A stretch of 64,000 nt of DNA from a bacterium. Its GTDB lineage: Bacteria > Zhuqueibacterota > QNDG01 > JAGLOF01. Of this stretch, positions 30,626 to 35,850 are shown one piece after another. The notes beneath the pieces are model-generated. The model was not told the origin of the DNA, searched no databases, and saw only the letters and a list, made by a program, of their open reading frames with translations. A program made the translations under genes and the position numbers. The stretch's first letter is position 1. Each line of letters starts with the position of its first letter. Where the stretch lies: assembly GCA_016934955.1 (NCBI GenBank), contig JAFGRY010000008.1:62001-126000 (forward strand), given 5' to 3'.

Positions 30626-31204
30626 ATGCTCCCGGCCTCGCTCGTCATAGGTGTGCTGCTGACCGGTGTCGTTTTGGTACTGACCCTTCCGGCCGTGCTG
30701 GAGCTCGCACTGAGATGGCGGGATGCATCTGTTCGAATTCAGGTGAGTCTTTTACTATTCGGGCGGCGCCGCTGGCGGCTTTTCCCCGTTAAACGGCATG
30801 CAAACGGCGGCGGAAGACCACGATCCCGGCGAAATGCACGCGGCGTATTCGTCAAGCGGGTGCTTCGGAATGCAGCGGAAAGCGGTCATCTGCTGCTTTC
30901 ACTGCTGCGGCGTCTGGCGATGCATATTCAGATCAGTAATGTCTCCATAGCCGGGAGTTACAGTCTTTGCGATCCCGCCTGGACGGGCTGGATGGCGGGG
31001 GCGATAGCGGCGGCGGGAGCCGCGGCCGGCCCCGGTACGGTTGATCACCTGCGGCCGGACTTCAGAGGTGACCGTACCGACATCTCGGTGTCAGTGGAGC
31101 TGCATGTCAGGCCGATACGTATCATTCTTGTCAGCGCTGTCTATCTGGTGCGATTCCTGCAACAGCACGGTACAGGTGAAAAGAGGAGGAAGAGGCGATG
31201 GTAA
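30626..31204 (+). CDS. DUF2953-like membrane protein
   Basis: A 192-residue protein with an N-terminal membrane helix (about 4-28) followed by a basic stretch rich in arginine. A region resembling DUF2953 follows (ISNVSIAGSYSLCDPAWTGWMAGAIAAA, then DFRGDRTDISVSVELHVRP), and the C-terminus is arginine/lysine-rich. It overlaps the GerW/YtfJ-like gene by 7 nt. The same pair (ytfI-ytfJ) stands together in Bacillus, which supports the family call. Its function is unknown. Confidence 0.65.
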   Translation: MLPASLVIGVLLTGVVLVLTLPAVLELALRWRDASVRIQVSLLLFGRRRWRLFPVKRHANGGGRPRSRRNARGVFVKRVLRNAAESGHLLLSLLRRLAMHIQISNVSIAGSYSLCDPAWTGWMAGAIAAAGAAAGPGTVDHLRPDFRGDRTDISVSVELHVRPIRIILVSAVYLVRFLQQHGTGEKRRKRRW

Positions 31205-31554
31205 TCGAGGATCTGATAAAGACCGTTCTCGATGAGCTGCGGAAGATGACCAGAACGGAGAATGTGGTCGGGGATCCGCTGAAACTGGATACCGCCACGA
31301 TCATTCCCGTTTCACGCATTTCCGTCGGATTCGGAGCGGGAGGCGGCGCCGGGACCGGGGATACAGGCCGGGGGGAGGCAACCGGTGGCGGCGCCTCCAT
31401 CGAACCGGTCGCGTTTATCGTGATCAGGGATGACAAGGTTGAACTGATCAGCGTCAAGGAAGAGAAGATGTCCCTGGGCAAGGTCATCGATCTCGTCCCG
31501 GGACTCATCGACAAGGTAAAAGAGGCCGGGAAAAAACAAAAGGATGAGACATGA
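31198..31554 (+). CDS. GerW/YtfJ-family protein
   Basis: A 118-residue protein. It has the conserved opening IEDLIKTVLDELRKM, then TIIPVSRISVGFGAGGGAG, a glycine-rich loop, PVAFIVIRDDKVELISV, and the amphipathic end VIDLVPGLIDKV. This is the GerW family, named from Bacillus sporulation/germination. Homologues also occur in many bacteria that do not make spores, where their role is unclear. No other sporulation gene is in the window. It is coupled to the DUF2953-like gene upstream and to the short gene downstream (ATGA overlap). Confidence 0.85.
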   Translation: MVIEDLIKTVLDELRKMTRTENVVGDPLKLDTATIIPVSRISVGFGAGGGAGTGDTGRGEATGGGASIEPVAFIVIRDDKVELISVKEEKMSLGKVIDLVPGLIDKVKEAGKKQKDET

Positions 31555-32358: not shown

Positions 32359-32886
32359 ATGTCAATACCAGAAACCGACGATCGGATCCTCTCGATTCGC
32401 ATACGGGAATCCGACCAGTCCGCCTTCAAGGAACTCTACCTCAGGTATTATGAGGCCATCAGCCGGTATGTCTGGTACCGGCTGCGCAGCCGGGAACAGG
32501 TTGAAGATCTCGTTCAGGAAGTCTTTACCCGGCTCTGGAGCCACCGGTCACGTCTGCGGCCGGACAAATCGGTCAAAGCCTATCTGTACCGGACGGCCTC
32601 CAATCTCATCGTCGACCGCTACCGGAAGAGGGGGTCTGAAACCGCCTTTCTCTCGGAAGTGAAAAGCCCGGTAACCGATGACAGTGAGGAAACCGATATC
32701 AGACTCTCCATGGAAGCGGCCATCGCCTGTCTGCCTCCCAAGGAGAAGACAGTGGTCATGCTGAGCAGGTACGAAGGGCTGAAATACCAGGAAATCGCCG
32801 ACATCTGTCATATTTCCGTGAAAACGGTTGAAAGCCGTATGACCAAAGCGTTCAGGCGGCTTCGCGAAGAGCTTGACGATCAGTAA
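32359..32886 (+). CDS. ECF-type RNA polymerase sigma factor
   Basis: A 175-residue sigma-70-family factor with only regions 2 and 4. Region 2 has AFKELYLRYYEAISRYVWYRL and VEDLVQEVFTRLWSHR, with the -10 recognition helix near AYLYRTASNLIVDRYRK. Region 4 has the LPPKEKTVVMLSRYEGLKYQEIAD helix-turn-helix ending TVESRMTKAFRRLRE. It heads a FecIR-type cassette. The next gene is its likely membrane anti-sigma regulator. Confidence 0.92.
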   Translation: MSIPETDDRILSIRIRESDQSAFKELYLRYYEAISRYVWYRLRSREQVEDLVQEVFTRLWSHRSRLRPDKSVKAYLYRTASNLIVDRYRKRGSETAFLSEVKSPVTDDSEETDIRLSMEAAIACLPPKEKTVVMLSRYEGLKYQEIADICHISVKTVESRMTKAFRRLREELDDQ

Positions 32887-32951
32887 AAAAATGAGCATTG
32901 TGCATAGGGATAATTGGAAACCGGACGTACTAGTGTACGAGAGGCAACAGA

Positions 32952-33995
32952 ATGGAGCGTCAATTGATCAGTTCGAAGTTTGAAAAATTATGTGTGAAAG
33001 CTGCCGCCGAGCAGCTTACCGAAAAAGAGAGAGCCCTGCTCGATGTCTGGATGAGCGGTTCTGAAGAGAACGCCGCCTATTATTCGCAGATCCAGTCCGT
33101 ATGGCAGGCGGCCCGGCCGCCCGAATTTGTTCCTGAAAAAAGCGCGGAAGCGGCGTGGCTCCGCATGGAGGCTGTTTTGAACAGGCCCCGGACATCCCGA
33201 AAAAGCGGCCTACAGGCCCTGCTGGAACGGATGGCCGCTTTCTTCGCGGCCGGCATGCGTCCCGGATTGCGGCCCGTGATGATCGGCGCTCTTCTGGTGA
33301 TCGTGGCAGTGGGCAGCTGGCGGATTGTCGCGTTTAACGCCGGACCCGGCTCGGATTCGGTGATCAGCACGAAAAACAGGCAGAAGACCGAGATGACCCT
33401 TGTGGACGGATCGGTGGTCACCCTCAATTTCGGCAGCACTCTGAAATACGCCGATAATTTCGGCCGCGACAGCAGGGAAGTCCATCTGGATGGGGAAGCA
33501 TATTTTTCCATCGTGCATAACGGCCTTCCCTTTACCGTCATCACCAGGAATGCCCGCACCACGGTCCTGGGCACGGAGTTCAGCGTCAAGTCCAGGGGCA
33601 GTTCCACCCGGGTCATTGTCAGGGAAGGGCGTGTCCGGCTCGAGGCCGCGGACACGCGTACAGCCGCTGCCGACAATGTCATCCTCACCGCTGATCAGAT
33701 GAGCGAGATCGTGGGCGCGGCGGCGCCCGAAGAGCCGGTTCAGGTCGACGCTGAAGAGATGCTCGGCTGGCTGGACGGCCGCCTCGTCTTTCTGCAGACA
33801 CCCCTCCCCGAGGTCCTGGAGGATCTGGAGCATGCGTATGACGTGCGATTCGTTCTTGCCGACACCACCCTGGAAAACCGGACGCTGACCGCGGTTTTTG
33901 AGCAGACATCGTTCGAGACCGTGCTGTCCGCAATCTGTCTCACCATGGGTGTGCAGTACGACAGTCATGAAAACGTGTACGAGATACGCGAGTAA
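32952..33995 (+). CDS. FecR-type anti-sigma regulator
   Basis: A 347-residue inner-membrane protein. The N-terminal cytoplasmic part (1-100) contains the short helical FecR_N region (LTEKERALLDVWMSGSEENAAYYSQI). A membrane helix spans about 107-127. The periplasmic FecR domain follows, with TLVDGSVVTLNFGSTLKYADNF, REVHLDGEAYFSI and FTVITRNARTTVLGTEFSV. The C-terminal 80 residues (GRLVFLQTPLPEVLEDLEHAYDVRFV) are an STN-like fold. It should hold or activate the sigma factor in response to a periplasmic signal. Confidence 0.9.
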   Translation: MERQLISSKFEKLCVKAAAEQLTEKERALLDVWMSGSEENAAYYSQIQSVWQAARPPEFVPEKSAEAAWLRMEAVLNRPRTSRKSGLQALLERMAAFFAAGMRPGLRPVMIGALLVIVAVGSWRIVAFNAGPGSDSVISTKNRQKTEMTLVDGSVVTLNFGSTLKYADNFGRDSREVHLDGEAYFSIVHNGLPFTVITRNARTTVLGTEFSVKSRGSSTRVIVREGRVRLEAADTRTAAADNVILTADQMSEIVGAAAPEEPVQVDAEEMLGWLDGRLVFLQTPLPEVLEDLEHAYDVRFVLADTTLENRTLTAVFEQTSFETVLSAICLTMGVQYDSHENVYEIRE

Positions 33996-34010
33996 CGGGA
34001 AGCGAATGCT

Positions 34011-35105
34011 ATGGTGAACATAAAAACGACATCACGTGTTCTGGGCGTCATTTTTTCAGCCATAGCCGTTCTCCCCGGGTTTTCCCAGGATATCCCCGCT
34101 GAAAAATCCGTAACCCTTCACCTCACCGATGTCCCCCTGCGGCAGGCACTGCAATCAATCGCCGATCAGGCGGATGTGAAATTCGTTTTTTCCGACGATC
34201 ATGTAAACAGCCGGCGCATTACCTGCATGATGAATGCCGTCGCTCTGCAGGAGGCCCTGAACATTATTTCTTTGCGTACCGGGCTGGCTTTTGCGATGAT
34301 GCCGGCCCGCACCGTTGTCATCTACCGTGAGGCTTCGACCAGCTCCGAGACGGCAGACGAGGCTCCCTTCAGTGCCAACCCCATGCGTCCGCCGGTGCTC
34401 AAAGACGTGATCGAACCATATTACCCGCCGCTTGCCAAAAACGAGGGACTGGAAGGACGGGTTGGCATCGAAATGCTCGTGTCGAGCGCGGGCCGGGTGA
34501 GCGATGTCCGTATCTCCTCATCCTCGGGATATAGAATTCTCGACCGGGCGGCGATGGAATTCGCCCGTCAGCTGACATTCGAACCGGCGATGCAGGGCAG
34601 CCGGCCTGTGGAGACCTGGATTTCGCGGATATTCACCTACAATCTGGAAGAGAGGACCCTGCTCCCCGAGCGGTACGCCGCCCAGATCGGGGAATTGCGG
34701 GCGCAGCTGAAAGGCGCCGACAGCGCCTCCCGGCACAGTGTCTACTGGAGCCTGCTGCAAACCCACGCGCAGTACTGCCGGCTGCTGATTGAACAGGGCA
34801 GTGTGCTCGACAACGATCTGCTCCTTCCTATCGTCAGTGAGGAGACCCGCCGCTCCTGGCAGCAGTGGTGGCAATCCGAACCGCTTTTTTTCATTGTCTT
34901 TCACGATTACCTTCGCCGCAATCCCGATTCGCCATATCGTGACGACGCGGTGGCGAAAATGAGATATTTTGCAGGTATTCTCGTCAATAGAATTCTGGAC
35001 CGGCCCAGCGCCGATCCTGAAATACAAGCCAGACAGAATCGTTTCATTGATGACGTGCGCACGTTTTTGAAAAACGATTATTCCGGAACCCCAACCGAAT
35101 CCTGA
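34011..35105 (+). CDS. Secreted STN-TonB_C fusion protein
   Basis: A 364-residue protein with a signal peptide (about 1-25). Next is a secretin/TonB short N-terminal (STN) domain (about 32-105, VTLHLTDVPLRQALQSIADQ and FVFSDDHVNSRRI), then a TonB C-terminal domain (about 125-210, YYPPLAKNEGLEGRVGIEMLVSS and LDRAAMEFARQLTFEPA). A 150-residue helical tail without a known family follows. There is no cytoplasmic anchor or proline-rich spacer, so it cannot act as a classical TonB. In standard FecIRA systems the STN domain belongs to the outer-membrane receptor. Here a soluble protein carries it, 15 nt after FecR. Confidence 0.8.
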   Translation: MVNIKTTSRVLGVIFSAIAVLPGFSQDIPAEKSVTLHLTDVPLRQALQSIADQADVKFVFSDDHVNSRRITCMMNAVALQEALNIISLRTGLAFAMMPARTVVIYREASTSSETADEAPFSANPMRPPVLKDVIEPYYPPLAKNEGLEGRVGIEMLVSSAGRVSDVRISSSSGYRILDRAAMEFARQLTFEPAMQGSRPVETWISRIFTYNLEERTLLPERYAAQIGELRAQLKGADSASRHSVYWSLLQTHAQYCRLLIEQGSVLDNDLLLPIVSEETRRSWQQWWQSEPLFFIVFHDYLRRNPDSPYRDDAVAKMRYFAGILVNRILDRPSADPEIQARQNRFIDDVRTFLKNDYSGTPTES

Positions 35106-35226: not shown

Positions 35227-35850
35227 ATGAAGTCCTATATGTCGTTTTTTACGGCCTGCGGTCTTCTCGTTCTGGCCGGATGCGCCACCACGAGGATGAC
35301 GGCAAGCAACACGAAAATGTCCTTCGAATATGAGGGAGACAGTTACACCATTCAGAGTCACAATCCCGATACCCAGGTCGGGTACAATATTCTCGTATCG
35401 ATGCAGGATGAAAAGACCGTTTTCAAGGCGCTGGATGAACAACAGGACGGGGTTATCGATAAAGTGGTCGTCGGCGACATTCCCATGTGGAAAGCGCAGA
35501 CCATATATGATGCGGGCATCAAGTCGGGCAGAGAAAAGGGCGCGGTGAAAAAGCGCTACGTGGAACGCACCTACACCTGTTCCGATGCCAATTACTACTA
35601 TGTCCTGCAGACATTCGAACTCGCAGTCGGAGATGTGTACAACAAACTGGTGATTCAGGATAGATCCACTTCCTTTTTCCAGACGATTGTCACCGATATC
35701 GATGCCGACGGCAGTCTCAACAGGATCGATAAAGACGGCAAATTGAGTATGGATGCCTATCAGGATTTCTACAAGACGGTGATCGCCCGGGGTATGTCCG
35801 AGGGAAAGATTCAGAAATCGGACAACAAATATCTCGTTGCCATGCGCTGA
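35227..35850 (+). CDS. Lipoprotein of unknown function
   Basis: A 207-residue lipoprotein with lipobox LAGC near residue 19. The mature part is rich in charged and tyrosine residues and has a calcium-binding-like stretch (DIDADGSLNRIDKDG). The first half also has DEQQDGVIDKVVVGD, a similar acidic pattern. I recognise no family. It follows the STN-TonB_C gene and ends in a strong terminator, so it may be the last member of the ECF-controlled unit. The ATG preceded by TGGAGG gives the proper signal peptide. Confidence 0.65.
   Translation: MKSYMSFFTACGLLVLAGCATTRMTASNTKMSFEYEGDSYTIQSHNPDTQVGYNILVSMQDEKTVFKALDEQQDGVIDKVVVGDIPMWKAQTIYDAGIKSGREKGAVKKRYVERTYTCSDANYYYVLQTFELAVGDVYNKLVIQDRSTSFFQTIVTDIDADGSLNRIDKDGKLSMDAYQDFYKTVIARGMSEGKIQKSDNKYLVAMR

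Follow-up and report, generated by a model that had tools for sequence, protein, structure and literature searches.

The closest described relative of the locus analysed here is the PUMA3 system of Pseudomonas aeruginosa, in which the periplasmic protein VreA combines an STN domain with a TolA/TonB-like C-terminal domain (CTD) and is encoded in a cluster with the ECF sigma factor VreI and the FecR-like protein VreR (Llamas 2009; PMC2729926). In the proposal of 2009 the STN domain of VreA touches the anti-sigma factor VreR and its CTD touches an outer-membrane receptor, and homologues of VreA were listed in several Proteobacteria (PMC2729926). What VreA does has stayed unsettled since that year because deletion of vreA left sigma-VreI activity, target expression and virulence unchanged in the conditions tested (PMC4971064, PMC7035377); as VreA is dispensable for sigma-VreI activity, a relay role is unproven even for this prototype. 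An ECF sigma factor, a FecR protein and an STN domain are also encoded in one locus in the FecIRA and FoxIRA systems, where the STN domain is part of the outer-membrane receptor.

The locus was found in a stretch of 64,000 nucleotides (the window) on contig C27 of an uncultured bacterium of the phylum KSB1/Calditrichota, whose genome assembly (G000; 4.4 Mb in 52 contigs) is about 90% complete. A three-gene cassette on the plus strand (32359-35105) encodes an ECF sigma factor, a FecR-type anti-sigma factor and a secreted protein joining STN and TonB_C domains to an uncharacterized tail. This order had been read from the DNA in the original prediction and was borne out by Pfam and NCBIfam profiles, the tail matching no Pfam family. 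The genes are separated by 65 bp (sigma/FecR) and 15 bp (FecR/third gene), an arrangement that fits an operon. The sigma factor (32359-32886, 175 aa) contains the Pfam domains Sigma70_r2 and r4_2 and belongs to the Bacteroidetes-type subfamily TIGR02985 (132.5 bits against a cut-off of 126.4; 1.6e-38). The adjoining FecR protein (32952-33995, plus strand, 347 aa; Pfam FecR 5.5e-16, FecR_C 4.2e-13) shows the organization of a FecIR-type partner, with a cytoplasmic N-terminus, a single transmembrane segment at about residues 109-127 (hydropathy maximum at residue 109) and a periplasmic, STN-like C-terminal domain (residues 278-340).

The third gene (34011-35105, plus strand) is complete, starts with ATG and encodes a VreA-like periplasmic adaptor of 364 aa, to which domains were assigned with Pfam, AlphaFold and Foldseek. 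A type I-like signal peptide (residues 1-25; 34011-34085) was read from the sequence and its hydropathy, with an h-region of about 15 residues (about residues 10-24) and pLDDT below 50 for residues 1-27; the N-termini of all three tail-bearing fusions known to us from the survey below are signal-peptide-like. The STN or signalling domain follows (residues 33-106; 34107-34328), with an above-cut-off Pfam STN match (5.5e-8, residues 25-65) and Foldseek matches to the PilQ N0 domain, the PupR CCSSD and the signalling domains of FpvA and PupB. A weak Pfam FecR_C match over the same region (6.6e-4) is explained by the C-terminal end of FecR-family anti-sigma factors being itself STN-like (PMC11637429). 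The TonB C-terminal domain (residues 135-212; 34413-34646; Pfam TonB_C 1.4e-21) was closest by Foldseek to the TonB CTD of the FoxA complex (6i97_D, E 5.4e-6, TM 0.86 on target, rmsd 1.6), while a search of a viral fold library gave nothing usable. Both domains, on which the prediction depended, were thus recognized by Pfam profile and by fold. The AlphaFold model, built with 39 phylum homologues, reached a mean pLDDT of 86.9 and shows three confidently modelled domains with flexible linkers between them and a disordered N-terminus; across 39 sequences with about 20-35% identity, the TonB_C residues Y138, P139, G149, S172, L177, D178 and P192 are invariant. No lipobox is present, and no 19-residue stretch beyond residue 45 exceeds a KD hydropathy of 1.33, in agreement with the earlier description of a signal peptide without a membrane anchor, although the N-terminal segment could possibly act as an uncleaved anchor. 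The CTD is the same by profile and fold as that of TonB energy transducers (PF03544), but the fusion is secreted, carries an attached STN domain and has neither a proline-rich spacer nor the N-terminal membrane anchor that couples such transducers to ExbBD.

A receptor had been reported missing within about 8 kb on the right of the cassette. None of the 22 Plug domains detected in G000 is located on contig C27, so that the nearest detected TonB-dependent receptor is on another contig, which goes beyond a mere distance of more than 8 kb. The window locus accordingly has no STN-bearing receptor of the canonical FecIRA type, and its STN protein, in contrast to the receptors of FecIRA and FoxIRA, has no plug or barrel. 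The sole other STN domain detected in G000 belongs to a 765-aa protein that reads as a secretin; together with the absence of a Plug domain from C27, this means that canonical STN-receptors were not found in G000 as assembled. Additional TonB_C proteins, seven ExbD proteins and M50 proteases are encoded in the genome.

Like VreA, the window protein joins a TonB/TolA-type CTD to an STN domain behind a signal peptide, lacks a barrel, and has an ECF sigma factor and a FecR protein encoded alongside it in a locus without a receptor. We regard the cassette, by architecture and proposed mechanism, as a member of the known VreA/PUMA3 class, with VreA compared through its published description. The suggestion in the original prediction of an undescribed variant or new class of cell-surface signalling is not supported, since VreA of PUMA3 already embodies the same idea (PMC2729926); what is new here is the phylum, the link of the tail to a lipoprotein family, and a FecR-TonB_C fusion. 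Several differences from PUMA3 were observed. VreA has about 240 aa, no tail and a CTD whose nearest match, at 9% identity, is TolA, whereas the window protein has a clear TonB_C domain and a helical tail of 150 aa. The gene order is vreA-vreI-vreR, under PhoB, in PUMA3 and sigma-FecR-adaptor in the window. PUMA3 adjoins secretion-system and exbBD genes, whereas no two-partner-secretion or exbBD genes, a common PUMA3 association that is not part of the protein architecture, were found beside the window cassette in its different phylum.

The distribution of such loci was surveyed in 82 genomes of the KSB1/Calditrichota phylum, mostly drafts, by reading out 100 loci and the window, with neighbourhoods called by custom profiles and key proteins verified with Pfam. 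Scanning the genome contigs with the single 364-aa protein gave no match, and scanning them with a 6-row alignment identified four loci. Among the best-scoring FecR matches, a set from which rarer forms may be missing, there were 76 full-length FecR proteins, and their loci contained an STN-bearing receptor in 62 cases, a receptor without STN in three, and a TonB_C domain without a receptor in six, representing five families; the remaining five were at contig ends or otherwise unassignable. Recurrence without a receptor, which the original prediction had proposed as support, was therefore observed. Neither a receptor invariably adjacent to homologues nor a failure of the STN and TonB_C profiles, the two outcomes named beforehand as speaking against the prediction, was seen. 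A tblastn search of plasmids returned no STN-TonB_C protein, only matches to the TonB_C part covering at most 47% of the query and, where annotated, assigned to TonB.

Three of the six loci, those of the window, G008 and G016, are STN-TonB_C-tail cassettes with the same operon and no receptor; recurrence of the sigma-FecR-fusion order in two further genomes at 26-34% identity excludes chance. In G066, an STN-TonB_C protein without the tail is encoded beside FecR and sigma. The STN-TonB_C gene of G041 is frameshifted (L068:7221-7952), its STN and TonB_C halves lying in different frames, which may reflect either an assembly error or a real break. The FecR of G033 itself carries TonB_C fused to its C-terminus (Pfam TonB_C 2.2e-19, FecR 2.5e-16, FecR_C 1.2e-5), although the absence of a receptor is less certain for this locus, which is on a 6.8-kb contig. 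This fusion suggests a role of TonB_C as an input module of FecR, and it is the strongest new evidence placing TonB_C in the FecR pathway. Both G041 and G033 loci also encode a lipoprotein consisting of TonB_C and the tail. The FecR proteins of the four intact STN-TonB_C cassettes (window, G008, G016 and G066) form one clade (97/83), and a single origin of all six receptor-less TonB_C loci was not rejected (p-AU 0.33). Since canonical FecIRA prevails in the phylum, one could regard the cassette as a functionless remnant of such a system whose receptor was lost or replaced, but the intact, conserved frames in G000, G008, G016 and G066 and the clade of FecR proteins tied to the STN-TonB_C architecture make this highly improbable.

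In two other loci (L176:771-3732 and L184:4439-7470), a gene of about 360-376 codons is located between sigma and FecR and no receptor was found; these are perhaps a second receptor-less FecR subset (family f23). Sequences upstream of the six cassettes were compared by eye, and CCGTATTACTAT was common to L067 (before 4006) and L060 (before 4504, minus strand), in both within 160 bp upstream of FecR, a possible shared promoter element.

For the function of the cassette we favour, at slightly better than even chances, receptor-less signalling of the VreA/PUMA3 type. The transmembrane FecR would hold the ECF sigma factor, and the adaptor would dock through its STN domain on the STN-like C-terminal end of FecR, in the manner of receptor signalling domains, a contact proposed from homology to studied pairs of STN domains and anti-sigma factors. 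Docked STN would shield FecR from regulated proteolysis, and TonB_C, perhaps together with the helical tail, would bind an envelope partner; judging from its fold, the likeliest one is the TonB box of a receptor encoded at another locus. Once TonB_C is occupied, the STN-FecR contact would change, proteases would gain access to FecR and the sigma factor would be released; this direction of the switch, like the sigma targets, is one that we infer. Since deletion of vreA was without effect in P. aeruginosa, activation may not run through the adaptor, and the fusion could instead be a constitutive clamp, with STN stabilizing FecR, TonB_C an inherited passenger, and the signal entering FecR by another way. 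Such a clamp would be consistent with the unchanged sigma-VreI regulon of the vreA mutant and with the inhibition of signalling by free STN domains through protection of the anti-sigma factor; conservation of the TonB_C core at about 20-35% identity, and its retention even where it is fused straight to FecR, argue for use of this domain, and we consider the clamp rather unlikely. Alternatively, TonB_C may pair or compete with real TonB proteins and so report on the TonB-ExbBD machinery, its state or its load, instead of on a single receptor, a reading consistent with the many receptors, TonB_C and ExbD proteins of G000 and with the receptor-bound TonB CTD as the nearest fold match of the domain. 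The formation of TonB CTD dimers in vivo is debated, which counts against this reading, and we judge it improbable.

The preferred signalling model leaves room for a contribution of the tail (residues 213-364; 34647-35102), a helical domain traced by HMM, for which the model of the tail alone shows seven helices with a pLDDT of 90.3. No Pfam family and no PDB entry at E<0.001 matched it. The best structural match was BamD (E 0.18), and an assignment as a BamD/CpoB-like TPR domain was rejected because sequence matches were weak and fold matches non-significant. The tail HMM had matches in 33 of the 82 genomes. About three dozen non-fusion tail proteins were read by eye, and in all of them STN is missing and the signal peptide ends in a lipobox-like cysteine a short distance ahead of TonB_C; these KSB1/Calditrichota lipoproteins therefore share TonB_C and the helical tail with the fusion but carry a lipobox where the fusion has STN. 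Most of them are unlinked to sigma or FecR genes. In a tree of TonB_C-tail proteins, which has long branches and two rows covering under half of the columns, the three tail-bearing fusions nest within one well-supported side of the lipoproteins. As the fusion is also the only tail protein of G000, G008 and G016, it appears to replace the lipoprotein in these genomes.

These observations, together with the lipoprotein encoded within the cassettes of G041 and G033, would also fit a tail that is itself the sensor and that, like the TonB_C-tail lipoproteins, binds a ligand in the envelope, with STN coupling lipoprotein function to FecR. The STN-TonB_C protein of G066 is tail-less and the search of the whole genome detected no tail protein, which speaks against such a sensor, and we hold it to be distinctly unlikely. 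With a TonB_C-centred mechanism still preferred, the lipoproteins may point to the partner: in G001 and G007 their genes immediately precede a receptor gene (150-220 bp), and in G004 the distance to one downstream is about 1.3 kb (L059:2-3357, L061:2343-6218 and L063:8078-13038), and the three receptors are all closest to one G000 receptor on contig C51 (L015/L268; L268:7860-10898). Receptors of this type as the partner class of the adaptor are a hint, not proof.

A broader reading, which we put forward tentatively and consider possible but doubtful, is that TonB_C serves generally as a periplasmic module through which FecR anti-sigma factors receive input, either as an STN-TonB_C adaptor or by direct fusion to FecR, and that it monitors receptors encoded elsewhere in trans and has a tail shared with lipoproteins that may adjoin receptors. 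If true, distant phyla would share a branch of cell-surface signalling that is independent of a receptor. That the receptor-less design of VreA recurs in a phylum far from Pseudomonas, and that FecR-TonB_C occurs as a natural fusion, are arguments for a genuine function of the TonB-like domain in the anti-sigma pathway. STN-TonB_C and FecR-TonB_C proteins are compact constructs for asking what a non-energising TonB domain senses, and the tail/lipoprotein family contributes a helical domain, associated with TonB_C, that had not been described.

The neighbours of the cassette in the window encode a dUTPase, a Spore_YtfJ family protein, a lipoprotein and a ferredoxin-like membrane protein. The lipoprotein gene (35227-35850, plus strand, 207 aa) was considered as a candidate fourth component, since it adjoins the cassette in the window and its homologue in G008 directly follows the fusion gene (L053:6456-7079, E 4.7e-41). 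This candidate was set aside because the family, present in 23 of the 82 genomes, occurs mostly in genomes without a cassette and was not found in G016; whether it belongs to the system is uncertain. Two D-x-D-x-D-G-like acidic loops with weak EF-hand matches were observed in this lipoprotein. The Spore_YtfJ family protein (31198-31554; 5.2e-23) is encoded two genes upstream of the cassette. Finally, an 879-aa frame on another contig of the same genome (G000:C19:78424-79593; L249-L251) encodes a carboxypeptidase-regulatory-like stretch followed by three TonB_C domains, and is not an ordinary TonB.
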